Assembly (NCBI GenBank): GCA_016219285.1
Contig: JACRNJ010000041.1
Location: 1 to 53,720, forward strand
Length of the DNA: 53,720 nucleotides
From: Deltaproteobacteria bacterium
GTDB taxonomy: Bacteria > Desulfobacterota > GWC2-55-46 > UBA9637
Direction: 5' to 3'
In this document: one piece after another, positions 3,228-47,538 of the stretch
Position numbering within the stretch: the stretch's first letter is position 1
How the letters are laid out: every line of letters starts with the position of its first letter
The notes under the pieces: generated by a model
What the model was told of the DNA's origin: nothing
The model's database searches: none
The model's input: only the letters and a program-made list of their open reading frames with translations
Program-made: the position numbers and the translations under genes

Positions 3228-3650
3228 TTCTTTTTCTCACATCCATTCAACCTTAACTTTATCCCTCAGCTTCTTAAGCTCCTTGTCTCCTGACCTCTTT
3301 CCCTTATAAGAGATTATCAGCGCATAAGTGCAGTTGTTATCAAGGACACTCTGAAAAACTCTTTTTATGTCATTCCCGCATGTTTTTAGCGGGAATCCAG
3401 TTCTTGTAAATTTAATGACTTATGGATGCCCGACAGAAGCATTCGGGCATGATTTTTAGCGGGAATCCAGTTCTTGTAAATTTAATGACTTATGGATGCC
3501 CGACAGAAGCATTCGGGCATGACAATTTTAAAAAAGGTAGTTTTTCAGAGGTTCCTCAAGGAATTTCGTACAACATGGACGGAAAAGAAAGGCAGGACCT
3601 ATTAAATCATGATTAACCTGGCAATACAGCGATATTTTCAAGCACAGAAA
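3228..3650. other. Gene-poor stretch with a coding remnant and a 70-bp duplication
   Basis: On the minus strand an open frame from about 3374 to 3237 encodes some 45 residues with protein-like composition (part reads TYALIISYKGKRSGDKEL). It has no start codon and looks like the severed C-terminus of an unrecognised gene, adjoining the folE2 remnant. From 3383 it gives way to the 70-bp tandem repeat. Short plus-strand frames here are translations of the repeat and are not called. Confidence 0.5.
3383..3522. repeat. Two-copy 70-bp direct repeat with internal hairpin
   Basis: Copies at 3383-3452 and 3453-3522 appear identical by eye. Each unit starts TTTTTAGCGGGAATCC and contains the inverted repeat ATGCCCGA / TCGGGCAT. 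Just upstream, CATTCCCGC at 3371-3379 pairs with GCGGGAAT inside the unit. It looks like a small dispersed repeat duplicated locally. Confidence 0.9.
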
Positions 3651-21587: not shown

Positions 21588-21630
21588 TTTAGATTTACGA
21601 TTTTAGATTTTTGAATCGTAATTCGTAAAT
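21588..21630. repeat. Heptamer element between ddl and ftsQ, carrying the ftsQ SD tail
   Basis: Units GATTTAC, GATTTTA, GATTTTT then GAATCGT, AATTCGT (21592-21626). On the ftsQ side it abuts the conserved tail AATGGAGCnAAGC (minus strand, about 21575-21588). Confidence 0.85.
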
Positions 21631-22532
21631 CATTTACAAGATGCGCTCAATAAAATCTCTTCCACCATATCCGGAAAATTTATGCCTGCACATTTAGCGG
21701 CCTTTGGGAGCAGGCTTAGCTCTGTCATACCAGGTATTGTGTTTGCTTCCAGTACGTAAGGACGGTTCTTACTATCAAGCATGATATCAATTCTTGCCAT
21801 GCTGCTGCATCCAAGGATATTGAATGCGCTGAAGGCAATATCAGCCACCCTTTTCTCCAGCGTCTTTGAGAGGGGGGCAGGGACAACATACTTTGTCATA
21901 CCCTTGGTGTATTTTGCCTTAAAATCATACATTCCGTTTTTGGGTCTTATTTCAATAATAGGCAGCGCCCTGCCGCTTAATATGCCAACTGTCAGCTCCC
22001 TGCCTTTGATAAATTTTTCTATTAGCGCAGTATCGTTGTACCTTAATGCCCTTTTTATAGCAGATGGAAAGTTCTTTTTATCATTTACTATGCTTACGCC
22101 GATGGTAGAGCCCTGCGAATTTGGTTTTATAACAAAAGGCAGTCCAAAACCTTCAATCATCGCATTATTTATTGCATCGCCTTTTTTAACAACCCTAAAT
22201 GCAGGGGTTGGGATATTATTAAACAGGAAAAGCCTTTTTGCCAAGACTTTGTTTATGCTTATGGCGCTCGCCTGAATGCCTGAGCCTGTATACGGAATCC
22301 CCAGTATCTCTAATACTCCTTGGATTGCCCCATCTTCACCATATTTGCCATGAAGGGCTATAAATGCGATATCTATTTTTGAGCTCGTTATTTTATTGTA
22401 AACATCTCTTCCAACATCTATGGCAACGGCATTGTAGCGCTTCTGAATAAGGGCATTATAGACAGCCTTACCGCTCCTTAACGATATTTCCCTCTCAGCT
22501 GACATGCCTCCCATAAGCACGCCAATCCGCAT
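21630..22532 (-). CDS. ddl: D-alanine--D-alanine ligase
   Basis: ATP-grasp ligase making the D-Ala-D-Ala dipeptide for peptidoglycan. N-terminal GVLMGGMSAEREISLRSG, central GEDGAIQGVLEILGIPYTGSG, FVIKPNSQGSTIGVS and C-terminal EANTIPGMTELSLLP are hallmark segments. The Y in IPYTGSG fits D-Ala rather than D-Lac specificity. At 300 residues it is typical. It contains no repeat insertion, unlike the two ATP-grasp paralogues at 41.5-43.9 kb. Located between murB and ftsQ. Confidence 0.97.
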   Translation of the reverse strand: MRIGVLMGGMSAEREISLRSGKAVYNALIQKRYNAVAIDVGRDVYNKITSSKIDIAFIALHGKYGEDGAIQGVLEILGIPYTGSGIQASAISINKVLAKRLFLFNNIPTPAFRVVKKGDAINNAMIEGFGLPFVIKPNSQGSTIGVSIVNDKKNFPSAIKRALRYNDTALIEKFIKGRELTVGILSGRALPIIEIRPKNGMYDFKAKYTKGMTKYVVPAPLSKTLEKRVADIAFSAFNILGCSSMARIDIMLDSKNRPYVLEANTIPGMTELSLLPKAAKCAGINFPDMVEEILLSASCK

Positions 22533-23518: not shown

Positions 23519-24881
23519 CTCCTTTCACCATCTCCTCTGCTACCTGCCATATATTGCCTGCCCCAAGCGTTATAACCATATCACCAGCTTTTGTAATCTT
23601 ATTTAAATAAGCAGGTATGTCTTTTTTGTCGGGGATATAAACCACGTCTCTATGGCCATAAGCCTTTATGCTGGTATAAAGGACCTCTGAAGAAGCTCCG
23701 GTTATCTTCTCTTCGCCTGCCGGATATATATCAGTGAGTATCAATGTGTCCGCATCATTAAATGCAGATAAAAATTCATGAAAAAGGTCCTGTGTTCTTG
23801 AATAGCGATGAGGTTGAAAAACAGCTATTATCTTATTGTCCCATCCATCCTGTGCAGCCTTGAGAGTAGCCTTTATCTCAGCAGGGTGGTGGCCGTAGTC
23901 GTCAACAAATGTAACACCGTTATATTCACCCTTAATCTGAAATCTTCTTTCCACACCGCTGAAGTTCGCTATGGACTCCCTGGCATGTTCAAAGCTTATA
24001 TCAAGCTCCGTTGCCACCGCTATGGCAGCTAATGCATTGTAAACATTGTGATCTCCCGGGGTTTTCACAATAACCCTTTCCATTTTTTTGCCTCTTAGCC
24101 AGACTTCAAAAGAGGTCTTCATCCCTGTTATCTCTATATCTCTGGCGCTAAAATCTGCCTGTGTGGTCAAACCGTAAGTTATATGCCTTCTTGTAACCTT
24201 TGGTATAAGCCCCTGGATATTAGGATGATCCAGACAAAGGATTGCGCATCCGTAAAACGGAATCTTGTTTATAAAGGTAAGATAGGCATTTTTTACCTCA
24301 TCCATATCTTTATAATAGTCCATATGCTCTCTATCAATATTGGTGACAACTGCAATTGTCGGCGATAGTTTTAAAAAACTTCCATCGCTCTCATCTGCCT
24401 CTGCCACAAGGAATTCACCCTTGCCAAGCCTGGCATTGCTTTCCATGCTGTTGAGTTTGCCGCCTATAACAACAGTGGGGTCCATACCATGCGAACCCAT
24501 GATTGTTGCAATCATGGAGGTGGTAGTCGTTTTTCCATGGGTGCCTGCTATTGCTATCCCATACTTCATTCTCATAAGCTCTGCAAGCATCTCTGCCCGC
24601 GGGATAACAGGTATAAGCCTTTCCCGAGCGCTTATAATTTCAGGGTTATCCTTTTTTACAGCAGATGAATAAACAACCACATCTGAGCCATTTATATTTT
24701 CAGGCTTATGCCCTATAAATATTTTGGCTCCAAGACCTTCCAGTCTCCGGGTAGTATCTGATGCTTTAACATCAGAGCCGGTAATTTGATAGTCAAGATT
24801 CAAAAGCACTTCTGCAATGCCGTTCATGCCGCTGCCGCCAATGCCTATAAAATGGATATGTTTTATACGACCCTTATACAT
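23487..24881 (-). CDS. murC: UDP-N-acetylmuramate--L-alanine ligase
   Basis: ATP-dependent addition of L-Ala to UDP-MurNAc. N-terminal Rossmann motif [20 protein letters not shown] loop AGTHGKTTT at 112-120, the HHPAE motif ([15 protein letters not shown]), and FQPHRYSRT near the C-domain mark MurC. The natural end is near VAEEMVKG; the final nine residues are read from a heptamer array that also overlaps the murB junction. At 464 residues it is normal. Its start overlaps the murG stop by eight bases. Confidence 0.97.
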
Positions 24882-26079
24882 AGTTCAAGATGCAAGAGGC
24901 GAGAGGCAAGAGGCAAGCAAGGGTTTTTTGTCCTGCCGCTTGCTTCTTGTTTTTTGCCTCTGATAATTTGTAATTTGCAAGCAATATATTTGCTATCTCT
25001 CTTGCCGCATTCGGCCTTCCAAGCGCCTTTGCGTTTTGTTTTGTTTTTTGCAGCTCGTCACGATTTTTATAAAATTTCCTGATGGCATTTGCCAGCGCAT
25101 CTCCTATAATTTCATCCTGTCTTATCGCGATTGCTGCGCCTTTGCCTGCTAAATAGTTTGCATTCATCTCCTGGTGGTTATTTGCTGCAAAGGGGTAAGG
25201 GATAAGGATAGAGGCAAGCCCCAATGCGGTTATCTCCGCAATAGAGGTAGCTCCTGCCCTGCATATTACTAAATCTGCCAAAGAATATGCCTTAGCCATA
25301 TCATCTATAAATCTCACTACGTCGGCTTTGATGCCCTTTCTTGCATAAGTCTCCTTTACTGATGTATAATCTGCATCGCCTGTTTGGTGGATAATTTTAA
25401 TGGAGTCTCTTACGTCAGCCAGATATTCCATTGCATCTAAAAAGGCGGTATTTACTGCCTTTGCCCCCTGGCTTCCGCCGAAGATTAAAATGCTGAATTT
25501 GTTGGTGGGCATAGCCCACTCTACTCCTGTTTCTTTATCTTCTGACTTCTGACTTCTGACTTCTGACTTCTGTAGTATCTCTCTCCTCACAGGGTTTCCT
25601 GCCAGGATAACCCTTCCTACGGGAAAAAAATTTTTACTTTGTTCAAATGCCACAAAAACCTTGTTTGCAATCCTTCCAAGAATTCTGTTTGTTAAGCCTG
25701 GCACGGTATTCTGTTCAAGAATAGCTGCCCTTATTCTGAGAAGCCTTGCTGCCAGAATAAGAGGGCCTGATGAATAACCGCCTGTGCCTATAACAACATC
25801 TGGCTGGAAATGTTTAAGAATCTTTACAGCAAGGATAACTGCCTTTGCTGCCTTTAAACCTGCTGGTAATTTATTAAACCATCCCTTGTCTTTAAATCCC
25901 TCTATATCTAAAAGTTCCAGTGGGTAACCATATCTTGGAACGATGTCTTTCTCTATACCGGTGGTACTGCCTATAAATAGAATCTCGCATTCTTTATTCT
26001 TAGCTTTAAGCTCATCTGCCAATGCAAGGGCTGGAAATAAATGGCCTCCTGTGCCGCCGCCTGTCAATACAATTCTCAT
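24874..26079 (-). CDS. murG: UDP-GlcNAc--undecaprenyl-PP-MurNAc-pentapeptide GlcNAc transferase (MurG)
   Basis: Makes lipid II from lipid I at the inner membrane face. The glycine-rich [16 protein letters not shown] at the N-terminus, the G-loop [11 protein letters not shown] and C-terminal [12 protein letters not shown] are diagnostic. Two repeat-derived segments break the fold. A loop after NPVRREIL carries SEVRSQKSE from a heptamer array plus a GTGGGC palindrome. The C-terminal tail of about 30 residues comes from a second paired-arm element. At 401 residues it is longer than the usual 355-370, which the insertions account for. Confidence 0.96.
24886..24962. repeat. Paired-arm heptamer element encoding the MurG C-terminal tail
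   Basis: Left arm: CAAGATG, CAAGAGG, CGAGAGG, CAAGAGG, CAAGCAA (24886-24920). Right arm: CTTGCTT, CTTGTTT and a TTGCCTCTG end (about 24939-24962). Lies wholly within the murG frame. Confidence 0.85.
25501..25525. repeat. GTGGGC palindromic repeat inside murG
   Basis: On the minus strand the core is GTAGAGTGGGC-TA-TGCCCACCAA. A second copy, GTAGGGTGGGC-GC-TGCCCGCCAA, lies inside pyrK at 46004-46028. It forms part of the same inserted loop as the neighbouring heptamer array. Confidence 0.75.
25540..25574. repeat. Heptamer array TTCTGAC x4 inside murG
   Basis: Four perfect copies of TTCTGAC and a degenerate fifth, in frame, encode SEVRSQKSE on the minus strand. The same unit recurs at the murD N-terminus (28722-28749). 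Confidence 0.95.
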
Positions 26080-27336: not shown

Positions 27337-28760
<1,424 letters not shown>

Positions 28761-28764
<4 letters not shown>

Positions 28765-29923: not shown

Positions 29924-31376
29924 CTACTACCTCCTCCATCTTCATTCCCCTTGAGCCTTTGACTAGAATATTATCTCCTTGTTTTATTATACTGTTAAGT
30001 ATTTCAACCAGACCGCTTTTATCTGTTGCTTTGTGTATTGTATCAGCCGCCATTCCTGCATCTATTGCGCCGCTCATAAAATTATTGCTAAAATCACCGA
30101 TAGTAAAAAGCATATCTATCCCCATCTCATGCACCAGCCTGCCAATGTTTTTATGGCTGGCTATGGCTATGCTTCCTAATTCAAGCATATCGCCCAGAAC
30201 AGCAATTTTTCTCCCCTTCATATCTGCCAGGGTTTTTAAAGATGCCTCCATGGAAAGGGGATTGGCATTATATGTGTCATCAATTACTGTTATGCCATTT
30301 TCCAATATGACTATTTCCATCCTGCCGTGCATAGGCTCTGTAGAATACAGGCCATCTATTATTTCTTCTTTTGTTGCGCCAAGGGGAATGGTAGCTGCAA
30401 TAGCCGATGCAGCATTATAGAGATTATGCATACCTGCATATTTTAGCCTTACAGGGATTTCTTTTCCCATAACTAAAAAGGCGGCGGCTATGCCTCCTGA
30501 ATTTCTAACCCCTTGCCCTGTGCTTTTTACCTCTTTTAACATCACATCTGCCTTGGATTGCAGGCTAAAGGTAATTTTCTTCATCTTGATATTTTCTGCC
30601 ATATTTCTAAGCTGCGGATCATCAATATTTATTATGGCAGCGCCGTGAGTATCCATATTTTGGAAGAGTTCGCCTTTTGCGGATGCCACACCCTCTACGT
30701 TTCCGAGCGTGGCTGTATGCGCCTCACTGATATTTGTAAGAACAGCCACGTCTGGTTTGCATATTTGAGCAAGTTTTTTCATCTCTCCCTTTTCGCTTAT
30801 GCCGAGTTCCAATACGGCAGCCTTGTGAATGTTGTTAAGACGGAATATCGTGAGGGGGAGACCTATAAGGTTGTTTAGGTTCCCTTGAGTTTTTATAATG
30901 CTGCGCGAGGTTTTGAGTATAGCCGCTATCATTTCTTTTGTTGTTGTCTTTCCGCAGCTTCCGCTAACCGCAATCAGCGGAACAGGGTGCATCTCCCTCC
31001 AATATCGCGCAAGATTGCCAAGCGCAGAAAGCGTATCTTCAACTTGAACTATCCCAAATTGCGGGTTGGAATCGGAGAATCGGAGAATAGGAGAATCGGA
31101 GAAAATTTTTATCTCCCTTTCTCCCTTTCCCCCTTTCTCCGATTCTTTGGCTGCCGGTTCTTCACGTTGAACGATAACCCCCGCCGCCCCTTTTTTCAAT
31201 ACATCATTAACAAAACTATGGCCGTCAAATCTCGGACCTTTCAAGGCAAAGAAAAGCTCACCATTACTGATGTTCCTTGAGTCAGTTGAAACGCCGTTTA
31301 TACAGGCATTTTTATCGCCTTGTATTAAGCGGCCGCCAACTGCGTTTAAAACATCTTTTATTGTCAGTCTTATCAT
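29880..31376 (-). CDS. murF: UDP-N-acetylmuramoyl-tripeptide--D-alanyl-D-alanine ligase (MurF)
   Basis: Adds D-Ala-D-Ala to the tripeptide precursor. N-terminal domain with VSTDSRNISNGELFFAL, ATP loop GSCGKTTTKEM, NISEAHTATLGN, IDDTYNANPLSMEASL and AVLGDMLELG are typical. Within the N-terminal domain, between VIVQREEP and VQVEDTLSALG, an octamer-based paired-arm element inserts about 25 polar residues (KGEREIKIFSDSPILRFSDS). The C-terminal dozen residues are also repeat-derived. At 498 residues it is 40-50 longer than most MurF proteins. Confidence 0.97.
   Translation of the reverse strand: MIRLTIKDVLNAVGGRLIQGDKNACINGVSTDSRNISNGELFFALKGPRFDGHSFVNDVLKKGAAGVIVQREEPAAKESEKGGKGEREIKIFSDSPILRFSDSNPQFGIVQVEDTLSALGNLARYWREMHPVPLIAVSGSCGKTTTKEMIAAILKTSRSIIKTQGNLNNLIGLPLTIFRLNNIHKAAVLELGISEKGEMKKLAQICKPDVAVLTNISEAHTATLGNVEGVASAKGELFQNMDTHGAAIINIDDPQLRNMAENIKMKKITFSLQSKADVMLKEVKSTGQGVRNSGGIAAAFLVMGKEIPVRLKYAGMHNLYNAASAIAATIPLGATKEEIIDGLYSTEPMHGRMEIVILENGITVIDDTYNANPLSMEASLKTLADMKGRKIAVLGDMLELGSIAIASHKNIGRLVHEMGIDMLFTIGDFSNNFMSGAIDAGMAADTIHKATDKSGLVEILNSIIKQGDNILVKGSRGMKMEEVVEKLQDTSCKLQVKK
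31069..31145. repeat. Paired-arm octamer element inside murF
   Basis: Left arm: GAATCGGA x2, GAATAGGA, GAATCGGA (31069-31100). Right arm: CTCCCTTT x2, a C-rich variant, and CTCCGATTC (31113-31145). Same architecture as the heptamer elements but period 8; lies in frame. Confidence 0.9.
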
Positions 31377-31379
31377 GTT

Positions 31380-32921
31380 TTAGCCTGCTACCTTAAGGAT
31401 GTCTCTTTGTTCCATCGCCTTTCTTATCTCCTTTGTATCGTCAAAGGGAAACTTTTTGCTGCCAATTATCTGATAATCTTCGTGACCCTTGCCTGCAACA
31501 AGAATTATATCCTGAGGGGCTGCCATATTGACCGCTGTCTTGATCGCCTCTAACCTGTCTGGGATTACGGTATAACCCTTTGCAATTTCCGATTTTAGAT
31601 TTCTGATTTCCGATTTTAAATCGGAAATGCGCGGACAATCTTTGATACCGCTTTCAATCTCTTTTATAATTTCCATCGAATCTTCGCTTCGCGGATTGTC
31701 GGATGTAATTATTGTGAAATTGCTCAACCGTGTTGCAATTTCTCCCATAATAGGCCTCTTGCCCCTATCTCTATCACCGCCGCAGCCAAATATTGTAATC
31801 AGCCTCCCTTTTGTCAGCGGCCTCAAGGTATTGAGAGCCCGCTCCAGCGCATCGCCGGTATGGGCATAGTCAACAACTGCCTGAAAACCGTCATCAGAAA
31901 TAATCCTCTCAAGTCTGCCTGGAACTCTTTTAAGGTTTGTAATGCCCTGCTCTATAGCCTGCTTATCCAGTCCCAAACCAATGCCGACGCCAACCGCTGC
32001 CATGATATTTTGAAGATTGTACTCGCCTAAAAGAGGTGAAGAAATTTTTACAGAGCCGCTTGGTGTATTGAGGATTGCCTCTATACCCTTTTCAGAGAAT
32101 AATGTCTTTGCAGGCTGAATCTCTGTATCCTGTTTAAGGCTGTATCCGATAAATTTGCAATTTGCAATTTGAAATTTACAATGCAGCAACTTCTTCCCCC
32201 ACGGATCATCCATATTTATTACTGAGAAACCGCTTTCTTCTTTGGCTACAAAATCAGTAAATAGACGGGACTTGCTTTCAAAATATTCATCCATTGTTTT
32301 ATGATAATCCAGATGGTCTTGGGTAAGATTGGTAAATACACTGCCAATAAATCTTGAGCCGTCAACCCTTTTTTGCGCAAGACTATGCGAAGAAACCTCC
32401 ATGACACAGCAAGTGACATTGTTATCAACCATCTCTTTAAAAACCCTTTGCAGGTCAGGCGCCTCTGGCGTTGTATGCGGCGCATTAAATATTTTATCAG
32501 CGTAGCGATAATTAATTGTGCCCACAACTCCGGCATGAAAACCTGCAGCCCTAAAAATTGATTCCACAAGATAGGTAATAGTTGTCTTTCCATTTGTCCC
32601 TGTTACGCCAATAAGCGTCATTTTTTGCGACGGCTCTTCATAAAACAGAGAAGACAGCTTTGCCATTGCCTCTCTGGCATCAGGCACTACGACTTGCGTT
32701 ATGTTGGTATCTGCTGCCTTTTCCGCAAGGATAGCGGCCGCTCCGTGTTTTACCGCGTCATGGATAAAGTGAGCGCCGTCAAGGTGTACTCCTTTAATTG
32801 CAGCAAAGAGAAAATCTTTGCCAACCTGCCTTGAATCATAGGCAATGCCCTCTATAGGTATTTCAGGATTGCCAACAATACGCTTGCTGGGCAAATTTTT
32901 TATGAGTTCCGAAAGTTTCAT
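31380..32921 (-). CDS. murE: UDP-MurNAc-L-alanyl-D-glutamate--2,6-diaminopimelate ligase (MurE)
   Basis: Adds meso-diaminopimelate to the peptidoglycan precursor. GVTGTNGKTT at residues 105-114 is the ATP loop; NAPHTTPEAPDLQ and VMEVSSHSLAQKRV follow. The DNPR motif (TSDNPRSED) that selects meso-DAP over L-Lys is intact. Two in-frame heptamer arrays insert extra residues: HCKFQIANCKF in the central domain and ISDLKSEIRNLKSEI between the DNPR helix and GYTVIPDR. At 513 residues it is slightly long. It is separated from ftsI by 105 bp. Confidence 0.97.
   Translation of the reverse strand: MKLSELIKNLPSKRIVGNPEIPIEGIAYDSRQVGKDFLFAAIKGVHLDGAHFIHDAVKHGAAAILAEKAADTNITQVVVPDAREAMAKLSSLFYEEPSQKMTLIGVTGTNGKTTITYLVESIFRAAGFHAGVVGTINYRYADKIFNAPHTTPEAPDLQRVFKEMVDNNVTCCVMEVSSHSLAQKRVDGSRFIGSVFTNLTQDHLDYHKTMDEYFESKSRLFTDFVAKEESGFSVINMDDPWGKKLLHCKFQIANCKFIGYSLKQDTEIQPAKTLFSEKGIEAILNTPSGSVKISSPLLGEYNLQNIMAAVGVGIGLGLDKQAIEQGITNLKRVPGRLERIISDDGFQAVVDYAHTGDALERALNTLRPLTKGRLITIFGCGGDRDRGKRPIMGEIATRLSNFTIITSDNPRSEDSMEIIKEIESGIKDCPRISDLKSEIRNLKSEIAKGYTVIPDRLEAIKTAVNMAAPQDIILVAGKGHEDYQIIGSKKFPFDDTKEIRKAMEQRDILKVAG
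31587..31628. repeat. Heptamer array inside murE (C-terminal domain)
   Basis: Units TTCCGAT, TTTAGAT, TTCTGAT, TTCCGAT, TTTAAAT, CGGAAAT; the last is a short complementary arm. Encodes SDLKSEIRNLKSEI on the minus strand. Confidence 0.9.
32152..32179. repeat. Heptamer array inside murE (central domain)
   Basis: Units AATTTGC x2, AATTTGA, AATTTAC, in frame, encoding CKFQIANCKF. Confidence 0.9.
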
Positions 32922-41543: not shown

Positions 41544-42686
41544 ATGAAGGTTGGGCTGACATATAATATAAGAAACCAGGGGGCAGGGAAAAGACAAATT
41601 ACGAATTACGATTTACGAATTACGAATTTAAAATCGACAATCGAAAATCGTCAATCGAAAATAGAAGATGGTCAGGAGTCAGGAAAAGACCTGCCGCCTG
41701 ATTTCTTTGCCGAATGGGATGATGAGGATACCATAGAGGCTGTGCGGACTGCGCTGGCTGGAAGACATAATATTGTTATGATAGAGGCTGATGAGTATGC
41801 ATATGAAAAACTAAAATCATTCAGGCCTCAAATTGTTTTTAATATTGCAGAGGGCTTATGGGGGCAAAGCAGGGAGTCTCAGATACCAGCCATGTTGGAT
41901 ATGTTAAGGATACCATATACAGGCTCAGGGCCTTTGTCGCTTGGTATCTGTCTTGATAAAGCACGGGCAAAGGAAATTCTGATGCATCACGGCATCCTAA
42001 CACCAAAATTTACGATTTACGATTTACGATTTACGAATTTAAAAACCTATAATCGGCAATCGAAAATAGAAAATCTAAAATCACTTTCCTTTCCCCTCAT
42101 TGTAAAGCCTCTTTATGAGGGCTCCAGCAAGGGGGTAAGGAATAATTCTGTAGTCAATAATACAGCAGAACTCAAAGAAAGGGCGGGATGGGTAATAGCA
42201 GAATATAAACAGCCGGCCATTGTAGAGGAGTTTCTTGAGGGAAGGGAATTTACTGTTGCCATGATTGGCAACGGCAATGATGTGAAGGCGCTGCCTATTG
42301 TTGAGATAAATTACTCAAGCCTTCCATCGGGCGTAAATCCGATTTATTCATACGAGGCAAAATGGATATGGGATACGCCGGATAATCCGCTTGAAATATT
42401 CAAGTGTCCGGCGGATATTGGCAATAAATTGAAAAAAGATATAGAAACGGTCTGCAAAACTGCTTTTAATATCCTTGATATAAAAGACTGGTGCAGGATA
42501 GATATAAGGCTTGACGCAGAAGATAATCCTCATATACTGGAACTTAACCCTCTGCCAGGGATTCTGCCCGACCCGAAAAGCAATTCATGTTTTCCAAAGG
42601 CGGCAAGGGCTGCCGGCATGGATTATGATAAACTGATAAATACTGTTTTAAATACTGCCTGTAAAAGGCATGGGATTACAATATAA
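41544..42686 (+). CDS. D-Ala-D-Ala ligase-like ATP-grasp protein, paralogue 1
   Basis: A 380-residue ATP-grasp enzyme related to Ddl but not the cell-wall ligase, which is in the dcw cluster. Family segments are VFNIAEGLWGQSRESQIPAML, IPYTGSGPLSLGICLDKA, FPLIVKPLYEGSSKGV, VEEFLEGREFTVAMIG and the metal/ATP end DIRLDAEDNPHILELNPLPG. It probably joins a carboxylate to an amine via an acyl phosphate; substrates are unknown. Two heptamer elements lie in frame: one after the first strand (residues 20-40) and one in the linker before FPLIVKP. Followed 62 bp later by paralogue 2. The start codon lies inside a long inverted repeat. Confidence 0.88.
   Translation: MKVGLTYNIRNQGAGKRQITNYDLRITNLKSTIENRQSKIEDGQESGKDLPPDFFAEWDDEDTIEAVRTALAGRHNIVMIEADEYAYEKLKSFRPQIVFNIAEGLWGQSRESQIPAMLDMLRIPYTGSGPLSLGICLDKARAKEILMHHGILTPKFTIYDLRFTNLKTYNRQSKIENLKSLSFPLIVKPLYEGSSKGVRNNSVVNNTAELKERAGWVIAEYKQPAIVEEFLEGREFTVAMIGNGNDVKALPIVEINYSSLPSGVNPIYSYEAKWIWDTPDNPLEIFKCPADIGNKLKKDIETVCKTAFNILDIKDWCRIDIRLDAEDNPHILELNPLPGILPDPKSNSCFPKAARAAGMDYDKLINTVLNTACKRHGITI
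41601..41664. repeat. Paired-arm heptamer element in ATP-grasp 1 (N-terminal)
   Basis: Left arm: ACGAATT, ACGATTT, ACGAATT x2 (41601-41628). Right arm: AAAATCG, ACAATCG, AAAATCG, TCAATCG, AAAATAG (41630-41664). In frame; encodes NYDLRITNLKSTIENRQSKI. Confidence 0.97.
42009..42083. repeat. Paired-arm heptamer element in ATP-grasp 1 (linker)
   Basis: Left arm: TTTACGA x4 (42009-42036). Right arm: AATCGGC, AATCGAA, AATAGAA, AATCTAA (42051-42078). In frame; occupies the same protein position as the copy in paralogue 2. Confidence 0.97.
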
Positions 42687-42747
42687 GCGCTAACAGGCTG
42701 CTGAAAAGGCATCAACAGCCTGTTGAGATTTGGAGTTTGTCTTTCAT

Positions 42748-43860
42748 ATGAATCTTAAAAAAGTTGCCATAATCTACAATGATGACATGGATATGCTGAT
42801 AGAAAAAGAGCATAGCATTACATCATGGGAAGGTGTTATAGATACAGCCAAGTCAGTGGAAGCGGCATTAAAGTCAGAAGGTTTGTCCACAACCCTCATC
42901 CCATTGAGGGACAAGGTGGAAGATTTTATAAAAACCATTAAGCTGGAGAATGCCGATATTATCTTTAATCTCTGCGAAGGGGCAATGGGAAAGAGCGCTT
43001 TTGAAATGAATGTAGCCGCTGTTTTGGAGCTATTTGGATTTAGATTTACAGGTTCCGGGCCTCTTACCCTCAGTCTTGCATTGAACAAGGCCAGGGCAAA
43101 GGGAATACTTGCCTATCACGGAATCCCAACTCCAAAATTTACGATTTACGATTTACGATTTACGAATTTAGAAATTACAAATCGGCAATCGAAAATCGAA
43201 AATCGAAAATCGCTTTCTTTCCCCCTTATTGTAAAACCCGTTCAGGAAGATGCCAGTATCGGCATTGACCAGGATGCGGTTGTAAAAAATATGTCAACTT
43301 TAAAAAATAGGGTTAATTATGTTATAAAGAGTTACAAACAGCCAGCAATTGTAGAGGAATATATAGATGGAAGAGAATTCAATATTGCTGTAATGGGAAA
43401 TCATAAGCCTAAGGCGCTGCCTGTATCTGAGATAGATTTTTCCAGGTTTTCGGAAAATAACCCAAAGATTTGCACATATGAGGCCAAATGGGTAACGGAC
43501 AGCCCAATATATCTTAAGACCCCGCCCATCTGTCCTGCCGATATTCCAAGAGAATTAGAGCAAAAACTTTTTAGCATAGCATTAAAGGCATACAATGTGC
43601 TTGGATGCAGGGATTATGCAAGAGTAGACATGAGGATGGGAGAAGATGGGATACCAAAGATTCTTGAAGTGAACCCAAATCCAGACATATCGCCAAATGC
43701 CGGTTTTGTAAGAAGCGCTGCCGCGTATGGCTTTAGTTATCCGCAACTAATCCTTGAGATAGTAGGGATGACGTATAACAGATATCAAAAAACAGAAAAC
43801 AGGAAAGAGGAAACAGGAAAGAGGAAAGAGGATTGCTCTTTCCTAATTTCTAATTCCTGA
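42748..43860 (+). CDS. D-Ala-D-Ala ligase-like ATP-grasp protein, paralogue 2
   Basis: Second ATP-grasp enzyme, 370 residues from the ATG at 42748 (a TTG at 42730 is also in frame). It shares with paralogue 1 the FNLCEGAMGKSAFEMN, FTGSGPLTLSLALNKARAKG, FPLIVKPVQEDASIGI, VEEYIDGREFNIAVMG and ILEVNPNPDISPNAG segments. CEG replaces AEG in the substrate loop, so the two probably act on different substrates, perhaps in sequence. A heptamer element interrupts the same linker as in paralogue 1, and another provides the C-terminal tail (NRKEETGKRKED...). Confidence 0.88.
   Translation: MNLKKVAIIYNDDMDMLIEKEHSITSWEGVIDTAKSVEAALKSEGLSTTLIPLRDKVEDFIKTIKLENADIIFNLCEGAMGKSAFEMNVAAVLELFGFRFTGSGPLTLSLALNKARAKGILAYHGIPTPKFTIYDLRFTNLEITNRQSKIENRKSLSFPLIVKPVQEDASIGIDQDAVVKNMSTLKNRVNYVIKSYKQPAIVEEYIDGREFNIAVMGNHKPKALPVSEIDFSRFSENNPKICTYEAKWVTDSPIYLKTPPICPADIPRELEQKLFSIALKAYNVLGCRDYARVDMRMGEDGIPKILEVNPNPDISPNAGFVRSAAAYGFSYPQLILEIVGMTYNRYQKTENRKEETGKRKEDCSFLISNS
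43138..43214. repeat. Paired-arm heptamer element in ATP-grasp 2 (linker)
   Basis: Left arm: TTTACGA x4 (43138-43165). Right arm: AATCGGC, AATCGAA x3, AATCGCT (43180-43214). In frame. Confidence 0.97.
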
Positions 43861-45667: not shown

Positions 45668-46561
45668 TTGGCAAAGGTTCTCTATAATGAAAAAATTCTT
45701 CCCTTTTATTACAAGCTTGGAATGAGTTGGGAAGGTCTCCCGGCTATTGAACCTGGCCAATTTGTTATGCTTCGTATTACTGAAAATGCTGCCCCCCTCC
45801 TCCGAAGGCCGTTTGGTATATATAAAATACTGGGGCAAGGGGCAAGCCTGCCTGTGCGTGGCCGCACACAGACAGGGGGCAAGGGGCAAGGTGTTGAAAT
45901 TATTTATAAGGTGGTTGGCAAGGGCACTGGTCTGATGACTAATTTAAAACCAGGAGATATTGTTGATGTGCTTGGTCCGCTGGGCAACAGTTTCCAGCCA
46001 ATAGGTAGGGTGGGCGCTGCCCGCCAAAATCAAAGGATTATCATGGCGGCCGGCGGAATTGGCATTGTGCCGTTTTATTTATTAGCTAAAAGCTATCAGT
46101 TATCAGGTATCAGCTTGAAACTGTTATTCGGAGGCAGAGGCAAGGATGACCTTCCCGGTCTTGAGGATTTCAAAAAGCTTGGGATTGAAATAAAAATTTC
46201 CACGCAAGACGGGAGCGCGGGGGAAAAGGGGTTGGTAACCGAACTGTTAAAATCCGAAATCCGAAATCCGAAATCCGAAATCATTTATGCATGCGGGGCA
46301 AAGGCTATGCTGAAAGCGGTTGCAAAAATGGCAGAAGATGCAAATACTCCATGTTATGTATCTTTAGATAATGCAATGGCATGCGGCATTGGCGCTTGTC
46401 TGGGGTGCGCAGTAAAAATAGGAAGTGGGAAGTGGGAAGTGGAAAGTGGGGAAAGCAAACCCACCTCCCACCTCCTACCTCCCACATCCCAGATTTACAA
46501 GATGGTTTGCAAGGATGGGCCTGTTTTTAATGCAAGGGAGATAGCATGGGAAGAAATTTAA
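45668..46561 (+). CDS. pyrK: Dihydroorotate dehydrogenase B electron-transfer subunit PyrK
   Basis: FAD/[2Fe-2S] subunit passing electrons from PyrD to NAD. RRPFGIY (FAD), IMAAGGIGIVPFYLLA (NAD) and the cluster ligands C239, C244, C247 and C281 are present. Repeat-derived sequence is exceptional here: residues about 56-75 (heptamers around a nested palindrome), 114-121 (GTGGGC palindrome), 196-204 (AATCCGA array), and 253-275, between the third and fourth cluster cysteines. Spacing C247-C281 is 33 residues where about 12 is normal. At 297 residues it exceeds the usual 250-265. Start TTG at 45668 follows GAGGAAGG. Confidence 0.93.
   Translation: MAKVLYNEKILPFYYKLGMSWEGLPAIEPGQFVMLRITENAAPLLRRPFGIYKILGQGASLPVRGRTQTGGKGQGVEIIYKVVGKGTGLMTNLKPGDIVDVLGPLGNSFQPIGRVGAARQNQRIIMAAGGIGIVPFYLLAKSYQLSGISLKLLFGGRGKDDLPGLEDFKKLGIEIKISTQDGSAGEKGLVTELLKSEIRNPKSEIIYACGAKAMLKAVAKMAEDANTPCYVSLDNAMACGIGACLGCAVKIGSGKWEVESGESKPTSHLLPPTSQIYKMVCKDGPVFNAREIAWEEI
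45832..45889. repeat. Heptamers flanking a nested palindrome inside pyrK
   Basis: GGGGCAA x2 (45832-45845), then a palindrome with arms CCTGCCTGTGCG and CGCACACAGACAGG (45847-45876), then GGGGCAA x2 (45876-45889). The palindrome matches the intergenic copy at 7630-7656. In frame. Confidence 0.9.
46004..46028. repeat. GTGGGC palindromic repeat inside pyrK
   Basis: Core GTAGGGTGGGC-GC-TGCCCGCCAA, the same family as in murG (25501-25525); encodes GRVGAARQN just before the NAD-binding strand. Confidence 0.75.
46251..46282. repeat. Heptamer array AATCCGA x4 inside pyrK
   Basis: Four perfect copies plus AATC, in frame, encoding KSEIRNPKSEI. Confidence 0.97.
46421..46490. repeat. Paired-arm heptamer element inside the pyrK [2Fe-2S] region
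   Basis: Left arm: GGAAGTG x3, GAAAGTG (46421-46448). Right arm: CACCTCC x2, TACCTCC, CACATCC (46462-46489). In frame between codons for C247 and C281. Confidence 0.97.
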
Positions 46562-47538
46562 AACAAAGGGGCAAGGGGCAAGGGTCAAGGGTCAAGGAAA
46601 ACAAAACTCCGAACTCCGAACTCCCAACTCCTAACTTATCAGTCACGATTGCAGGCATTCAGTTAAAAAATCCGGTGATGACCGCATCAGGGACATTTGG
46701 CTACGGCGAGGAATATGCGCCTTATCTGGATTTAAACAGGCTCGGCGCTATTGTTGTCAAAGGTGTGTCGTTCAAACCGAGACATGGCAATCCGCCGCCG
46801 AGGATTGTGGAGACAGCGGCTGGTATGCTCAATTCTATTGGTTTGCAGAATGTGGGTGTAGAAGTATTTGTAGAAAAAAAACTCCCATTCCTTAAAAAAT
46901 TTGACACAAAGGTCATTGTAAATTTCTTTGGAGATTCTCTTGATGAATATTGCGAAGTGGCAAAGATTTTAGATGGCACAGATGGTATTGCCGGGCTGGA
47001 GATGAATATCTCCTGCCCCAATAAGCAGGAAGGGTGGCTTGAATTTGGCACAAATCCAGATTTGTGCTTCAGGGTTGTAAGTGCAGTTAGGAAATCTACA
47101 AAACTTCCTTTGATTGTAAAACTATCGCCTAATGTTACAGATATAACAGCGCTGGCAAAGGCGGCGCACGATGCAGGGGCAGATGCCCTTTCCTTGATAA
47201 ACACACTTTCAGGCATGGCTGTGGATGCAAATACAAGAAGGCCTAAACTCGGTAATATCATTGGCGGTCTCTCTGGCCCCGCTATCAAACCTGTTGCGCT
47301 GAAGATGCTCTGGCAGGTGTTTAAGGCCGTGAAACTGCCTTTAATCGGCATAGGCGGAATTATGACGGCAGAAGATGCCATAGAATTCATGCTTGTCGGC
47401 GCATCAGCAGTTCAGGTCGGGACCGCTAATTTTATTGACCCGCAAGCCAGCATAAAGATAGTTGATGGAATTGAATACTACTTCAAGAAGAATAAAATTA
47501 AAAATGTGAAGGGGCTGGCGGGGAGTTTGAGGGTTTAG
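46546..47538 (+). CDS. pyrD: Dihydroorotate dehydrogenase B catalytic subunit PyrD
   Basis: FMN enzyme oxidising dihydroorotate to orotate, with PyrK (class 1B). MTASGTFGYGEEY, VKGVSFKPRHGNPPPRI, MNISCPNKQEG (with the catalytic cysteine) and GIGGIMTAEDAIEFMLVGASAVQVGT are diagnostic. The fold starts at LSVTIAGIQLKNPV; the preceding 30 residues are heptamer-encoded. No other start codon lies between, and AAGGGAG stands eight bases before ATG 46546, so the extension is presumably translated. It overlaps pyrK by 16 bp. Confidence 0.96.
   Translation: MGRNLKQRGKGQGSRVKENKTPNSELPTPNLSVTIAGIQLKNPVMTASGTFGYGEEYAPYLDLNRLGAIVVKGVSFKPRHGNPPPRIVETAAGMLNSIGLQNVGVEVFVEKKLPFLKKFDTKVIVNFFGDSLDEYCEVAKILDGTDGIAGLEMNISCPNKQEGWLEFGTNPDLCFRVVSAVRKSTKLPLIVKLSPNVTDITALAKAAHDAGADALSLINTLSGMAVDANTRRPKLGNIIGGLSGPAIKPVALKMLWQVFKAVKLPLIGIGGIMTAEDAIEFMLVGASAVQVGTANFIDPQASIKIVDGIEYYFKKNKIKNVKGLAGSLRV
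46566..46632. repeat. Two-part heptamer element encoding the PyrD N-terminus
   Basis: First part: AAGGGGC x2, AAGGGTC x2, AAGGAAA (46566-46600). Second part: AACTCCG x2, AACTCCC, AACTCCT (46605-46632). The two parts are less complementary than in most copies. Confidence 0.95.

Follow-up and report, generated by a model that had tools for sequence, protein, structure and literature searches.

Two adjacent ATP-grasp genes share a heptamer element

How do two paralogous genes come to carry nearly the same tandem repeat at the same position, when the coding sequence around it is far more diverged? The question is raised by a pair of adjacent genes in the window, the 53,720-nucleotide stretch of DNA that was analyzed. 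G000 denotes the genome of the window, from a groundwater bacterium, G004 its closest relative, and f1 and f2 two families of the window's own order. Gene A (41544 to 42686, forward strand; 380 aa) and gene B (42730 to 43860, forward strand; 376 aa, with a possible start at the ATG at 42748) code for Ddl-like ATP-grasp ligases, and the tandem pair is kept in many members of the class. Both match the D-alanine--D-alanine ligase profile PF07478 (E values of 9e-37 and 5e-36, respectively), solved Ddl structures are matched at an E value of 6e-26 in a fold test of A/B, and the predicted structure of B matches the Ddl fold in a Foldseek comparison (E value of 3e-27). The AlphaFold model of B has a good Ddl fold, with insert residues 145 to 159 at a pLDDT below 50, the low confidence expected of a flexible loop. 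Neither protein reaches the curated cutoff of the NCBIfam families for bona fide D-alanine--D-alanine ligases (183 bits for A and 170 bits for B, versus 243 bits for the best family). A third Ddl-like gene (21630 to 22532, reverse strand), which shares a cluster with genes for Mur ligase and MurG-like proteins, probably encodes the housekeeping Ddl. Another member of the same genus as G000 (G001) apparently has no A-B pair, with a single distant Ddl match found.

The element of the A loop (42007 to 42080, forward strand) has a left arm of (ATTTACG)4 and a right arm of AATCGAA-like units and encodes FTIYDLRFTNLKTYNRQSKIENLKS, and that of the B loop (43136 to 43211, forward strand) encodes FTIYDLRFTNLEITNRQSKIENRKS; in translation, both lie in frame between the motifs TPKF and FPLIVKP. 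The sequence CCAAAATTTACGATTTACGATTTACGATTTACGAATTTA begins at 42003 in A and an identical stretch begins at 43132 in B; in the right arms, a few units are different (AATCGGCAATCGAAAATAGAAAATCTAAAATC in A and AATCGGCAATCGAAAATCGAAAATCGAAAATC in B). The first-pass annotation had described just this, the same element at the same site with identical left arms and slightly different right arms, and it is borne out. It was also correct that the surrounding coding sequence is far more diverged, as A and B are identical at 66 of 75 nucleotides (88%) inside the element and at 469 of 930 (50%) outside. The inside-versus-outside comparison that it had proposed, when run on third codon positions, gives 21/25 (84%) and 104/310 (34%), respectively, and the island of A-B similarity at the loop is real.

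Two further features extend this description. A third, diverged copy of the element is present at the N terminus of A (41594 to 41669, forward strand), where G004 has another pair of heptamers, (GTCAGGA)n and (AACTCCG)n, and both loop copies have hairpin potential, with single strands predicted to fold into long imperfect hairpins (z scores of -2.1 for the A loop, -3.4 for the B loop, and -1.1 for the N-terminal copy). An (AAAGAGG)n array at the C terminus of B (43786 to 43835, forward strand) is also present in G004. The unit TTTACGA is free of stop codons but its complement contains TAA, so that only one orientation of the element would be tolerated within genes.

The element is younger than the gene duplication

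In a search of 59 relatives, the tandem A-B pair was present across many families of the class. With 80 named loci added, 138 homologous loops were extracted, and a period-7 repeat occupies 9 of the 138, all nine of them in f1 and f2; no loop of the 138 has a repeat of period 4 to 6 or 8 to 12. Because pairs without the repeat are widespread and the repeats are confined to the window's own order, the element is much younger than the duplication. The first-pass annotation had considered an insertion that predates the duplication and has been homogenized since, which would account for the identical site in both paralogues, but this does not survive the comparison: with repeat-free pairs across the class, native B loops in G004, G005, and G006, and other heptamers at the loop elsewhere, it has almost no likelihood.

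All nine A genes examined in f1 and f2 have repeats or repeat-like remnants at the loop, built from units as different as ATTTACG, CTCCGGA-like, CAGCGCT, ACTCTCC, and ATCTCAC. Repeats in the B loop are present in G000, G002, and G003, the last two having repeats in both paralogues, and different heptamers occupy the loop in G002, G003, G008, G009, and G010. In G008, G009, and G010, an unrelated insertion is present in the orthologue of only one paralogue, an outcome that the first-pass annotation had named in advance as contrary to its proposal, and a single old shared event therefore cannot explain the pattern. The loop arrays of G008 and G009 cause no net length change relative to array-free relatives. 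In the A loop of G010 (locus L007), a heptamer-like array is followed in the same loop, and in frame, by the palindrome CCCCGACCTAAAGGTCGGGG. Site-directed insertion into both loops, a further suggestion of the first-pass annotation, holds in a weaker sense only, in that the loop is recurrently occupied by different heptamers in f1 and f2, in both paralogues in G002 and G003. As part of our favored explanation, which we consider probable as a whole, the loop between TPKF and FPLIVKP would be a permissive surface position that is re-occupied by arrays, nearly always in A and sometimes in B.

Gene B carries a replaced tract

In G000, the B element lies within a replaced tract of ∼116 bp (43103 to 43218, forward strand) that is 38% identical to the B gene of G004, compared with 95% outside the tract. 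In G004, which is a Deltaproteobacteria bin from groundwater, the element is present in A, and the B loop is native. The tract boundaries are sharp at 43103 and 43218, with flanks that are 95 to 100% identical between the two B genes, including 164 identical bases preceding the tract. The G004 B loop is 69 to 73% identical to those of G005 and G006 in the tract region and 72 to 75% identical outside, which fits vertical inheritance of that loop.

In the G000 B tract, the element is flanked by A-like sequence, and within the corresponding G004 region it is A that aligns best with the tract, at 83%. The tract is also 83% identical to the resident A (74% at third positions), with 31 of 42 nucleotides identical in the remainder of the tract beyond the element. 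Such sharp borders, with the paralogue more similar between them than beyond, are as in a gene-conversion tract, and recombination with an A-type sequence likely put the tract into B. Ectopic or allelic recombination would have brought in the array together with this A-type tract, long after the divergence of A and B. The left flank is short (36 nt) and unspecific, being 72% like the resident A but also showing 61 to 64% similarity to several further A and B genes; the A origin therefore rests largely on the protein motif (ILAYHGIPTPKF, SLSFP) together with the element. Parsimony fits either gain of the A-like B loop in G000 or its loss in G004, and the B loops of G002 and G003 are A-like too.

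The donor is unlikely to be the gene next door. A recent conversion in which the resident A was the donor for B has in its favor that the two genes are adjacent in tandem and that A is the best-scoring genomic match of the full-length B element (89%, over an 85-nt shared stretch), but 83% identity across the tract is too low for a recent event when B outside it is 95% like its G004 counterpart, and around the loop the A genes of G000 and G004 are much alike; we regard this origin as distinctly unlikely. No donor better than the resident A was found in the genomes searched. The 68-nt core of the B element is 93% identical to a copy on contig 39 (C39), closer than to A, which leaves some probability for an independent insertion. 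Of the gene conversion offered by the first-pass annotation, the bounded, A-like, element-bearing tract in B thus stands, and the resident A as its recent source does not.

Recombination could be dispensed with if arrays inserted at random and were retained only in permissive loops, A and B then sharing a site through their common fold. The unrelated heptamers in the same loop of other species, the greater similarity of the B core to the C39 copy than to A, and the location of array sites in loops that are variable in all relatives would all be expected from such a sieve, but the A-like flanks of the B tract extending past the element and the 85-nt stretch shared at 89% would not, and we consider the sieve possible but clearly the less probable account. 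With recombination as the preferred origin of the B tract, loop inserts that are common to paralogues need not come from their ancestor.

Heptamer arrays are dispersed through the genome

The window contains 27 period-7 arrays, compared with none in a first-order Markov-simulated control, and arrays of other periods are near zero except for multiples of 7. Stretches sampled with a bias towards the element have 32 arrays per 100 kb; density was therefore taken from an unbiased 185 kb of G000, which contains 21 period-7 arrays (∼11 per 100 kb), three of period 8, and hardly any with other unit lengths (0 to 3 per period). No period-7 array was found in 100 kb of G018, a member of the same class but another family, and loci from other phyla have ∼2 per 100 kb. 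There are 52 unit types among 130 arrays. Arm lengths peak at 30 to 35 nt (arms of ∼32 nt). The 21 unbiased arrays are placed within open reading frames (8), at their edges (7), and between genes (6), with a coding fraction of 0.82. Inverted complementarity between adjacent arms is moderate, at 4.5 of 7 positions over all pairs versus 3.86 ± 0.23 expected, and many arrays have no detected partner arm.

Among the genes that contain arrays in the stretches sampled, Pfam recognized those for PheT, MurG, Mur ligases, TrpE-like, BamA-like, CbiD, and CobQ/CobB-like proteins, and tetrapyrrole methylases; PyrK is a host as well. In pyrK, an (AAATCCG)5 array (46247 to 46285, forward strand) stands where G004 has native codons, with no net length change, and a hairpin of (GGAAGTG)n and (CCCACCT)n (46415 to 46491, forward strand) lies where each of the seven genomes compared has a different peptide, repeat-like or of low complexity; in RNA family searches the pyrK array gave only subthreshold matches to miRNA hairpins, which we read simply as hairpin shape. 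The N terminus of pyrD has (AAGGGGC)n and (AACTCCG)n arrays (46564 to 46637, forward strand), with a different heptamer in G004. Three arrays on the reverse strand are in cell wall genes: one (25534 to 25576) in a MurG-like gene (24874 to 26079), at a site where G004 has an octamer array, (TTTCTCCG)n; one (27970 to 28016) in a MurD-like gene (27337 to 28764); and one (32150 to 32182) in a Mur ligase gene (31380 to 32921), where G004 has a different heptamer.

Other repeats were seen alongside these. Octamer arrays of the same architecture are present at 31067 to 31141 of the window and at several G004 sites; they are more numerous in G004 than in G000, at about 11 per 100 kb in the G004 regions read, and are sometimes at sites of G000 heptamers. 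A 70-bp unit is repeated 2.2 times, with 96% identity, at 3371 to 3522 of the window. Contig 34 of G000 (locus L060) contains members of two dispersed, MITE-like families of ∼200 bp (1255 to 1447 and 1741 to 1977), each with more than a dozen copies in G004 at 79 to 96% identity.

Array content turns over at fixed sites

Array content turns over while the site stays fixed. Every array site in four stretches of G000 was compared with G004 by locating both flanks, giving 42 sites from element-enriched regions and one genome pair. In G004, the array is the same at 14 of these sites, a different tandem array occupies 20, and 8 have none. Of 206 array-free positions mapped likewise, 5 coincide with a tandem array in G004, and the difference from the changed sites (20 of 28 with another array) is highly significant (Fisher P = 3e-18). 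Refilled sites outnumber emptied ones, 20 to 8, which independent loss and gain, as under the sieve, would not favor.

Twenty of the sites are internal to genes (8 with the same array, 9 with another, and 3 with none), and the frame is kept at all 20. Length differences are multiples of three at 19; at the twentieth, in a CobQ-like gene, the alignment slips, and direct translation is in frame with the array registers differing (MIDARCEMQDAR and TQMQDVRCKMQ). The in-frame state is plainly kept by selection. At the three internal sites that are array free in G004, the G000 units are missing, by eye, from the native sequence, so the arrays have not grown locally, and growth by slippage from local sequence was rejected.

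All genomes used here are bins or drafts, and repeat-rich metagenome bins might be misassembled; such an artifact is nonetheless very improbable, given repeats at the same positions in several separately assembled genomes, collinear flanks, and a frame kept at every internal site. As the second part of the explanation that we think probable, arrays in this order would be placed at fixed, tolerant spots in ordinary and even essential genes, with swaps that keep the frame.

Possible mechanisms of array exchange

The repeat shared by A and B would thus belong to a class of short heptamer arrays found throughout the genome in this order, often in pairs of arms with imperfect complementarity, each of ∼32 nt. 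Seven and three are coprime, so three units make seven codons, and whichever frame is read gives the same heptapeptide. A unit free of stop codons leaves all frames open, and an array therefore fits in genes provided that the length changes by a net multiple of three. Our best guess is that exchange would occur during repair of breaks or stalled forks at the hairpins, with a short array copied from elsewhere in the genome and only in-frame outcomes retained by selection. A dedicated process in this order, by which a ∼32-nt arm or hairpin would be removed and an unrelated one written at a fixed site, with in-frame diversification of the surface loops of housekeeping proteins, is a more ambitious and rather doubtful proposal.

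A mobile palindromic element of the MITE, REP, or Rickettsia palindromic element type, moved by a Y1 (RAYT/IS200-like) transposase, would explain the hairpin shape and perhaps the palindrome beside the heptamer array in the G010 A gene, and there are 2 to 12 Y1_Tnp genes in seven genomes of array-bearing families versus 0 to 1 in other class members. Y1_Tnp genes are thus in most but not all array-bearing genomes, as G008 has arrays and no Y1_Tnp match, which makes the transposase a weaker candidate than break repair. Hairpin arms are evident for the two loop copies and weaker in general. Moreover, there is no single sequence family with defined ends but about 50 different units, arrays of unlike sequence replace one another at one site, and no target duplications are seen in the alignments inspected; we consider a mobile element unlikely. 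A reverse transcriptase was rejected as the driver, as the distribution of PF00078 does not track the arrays.

Relationship to known repeats

Rickettsia palindromic elements (RPEs) are short palindromic repeats found in protein genes, where their insertion keeps the frame, and they form sequence families. Unlike RPEs, what is shared here is mainly an architecture, of period 7 and arm size. The best precedent for swapping is the P6b stem-loop of the Nostoc trnL (tRNA-Leu UAA) intron, in which seven-base units form a stem at a fixed site and repeats of class TDNGATT have repeatedly replaced NNTGAGT wholesale (PMC4476775), although that system involves one site in an intron RNA and two unit classes, whereas here there are many sites, many of them in protein genes, and about 50 units.

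Dispersed heptamer arrays of about 4 to 5 units, many per genome, are also known from the cyanobacterial STRR and the GGGNATC repeats of Xanthomonas and Nostoc (PMC4692102). The arrays described here likewise have a unit of exactly 7 and are dispersed in many copies, but unlike STRR they are not mainly intergenic, and unlike the GGGNATC repeats, which are overrepresented in noncoding DNA and underrepresented on the coding strand of open reading frames (PMC4692102), they are often in the middle of essential genes. The TAACTGA repeats of Beggiatoaceae are heptamer direct repeats as well, for which the limits set by orientation and stop codons in genes have already been worked out; unlike the arrays here, they consist of one unit, located mainly upstream of start codons, and are not known to swap content (PMC4679880). 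Fast-evolving tandem repeats of Borg elements are similar in that about half are in genes, where they code for disordered protein segments, but all Borg units within genes have a length divisible by three (PMC9879509), whereas here the unit is seven and the frame is kept through total length.

According to earlier surveys quoted in PMC4679880 and PMC4692102, heptamers outnumber every other class of longer simple repeats in many bacterial genomes. In the literature searched, we found no accepted explanation for the bacterial preference for a seven-base unit; an idea based on polymerase contacts is quoted in PMC4679880. A search of the open-access literature, outside of which most subscription papers fall, found no report of genome-wide swapping inside protein genes. 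Dense, young arrays in essential genes, polymorphic between close relatives, allow gain, loss, and swap to be traced in this lineage at dozens of orthologous sites, and show a route for repeats to become protein segments. Compared with the known heptamer repeats, what looks new is the location inside protein genes and the turnover of content at fixed sites.
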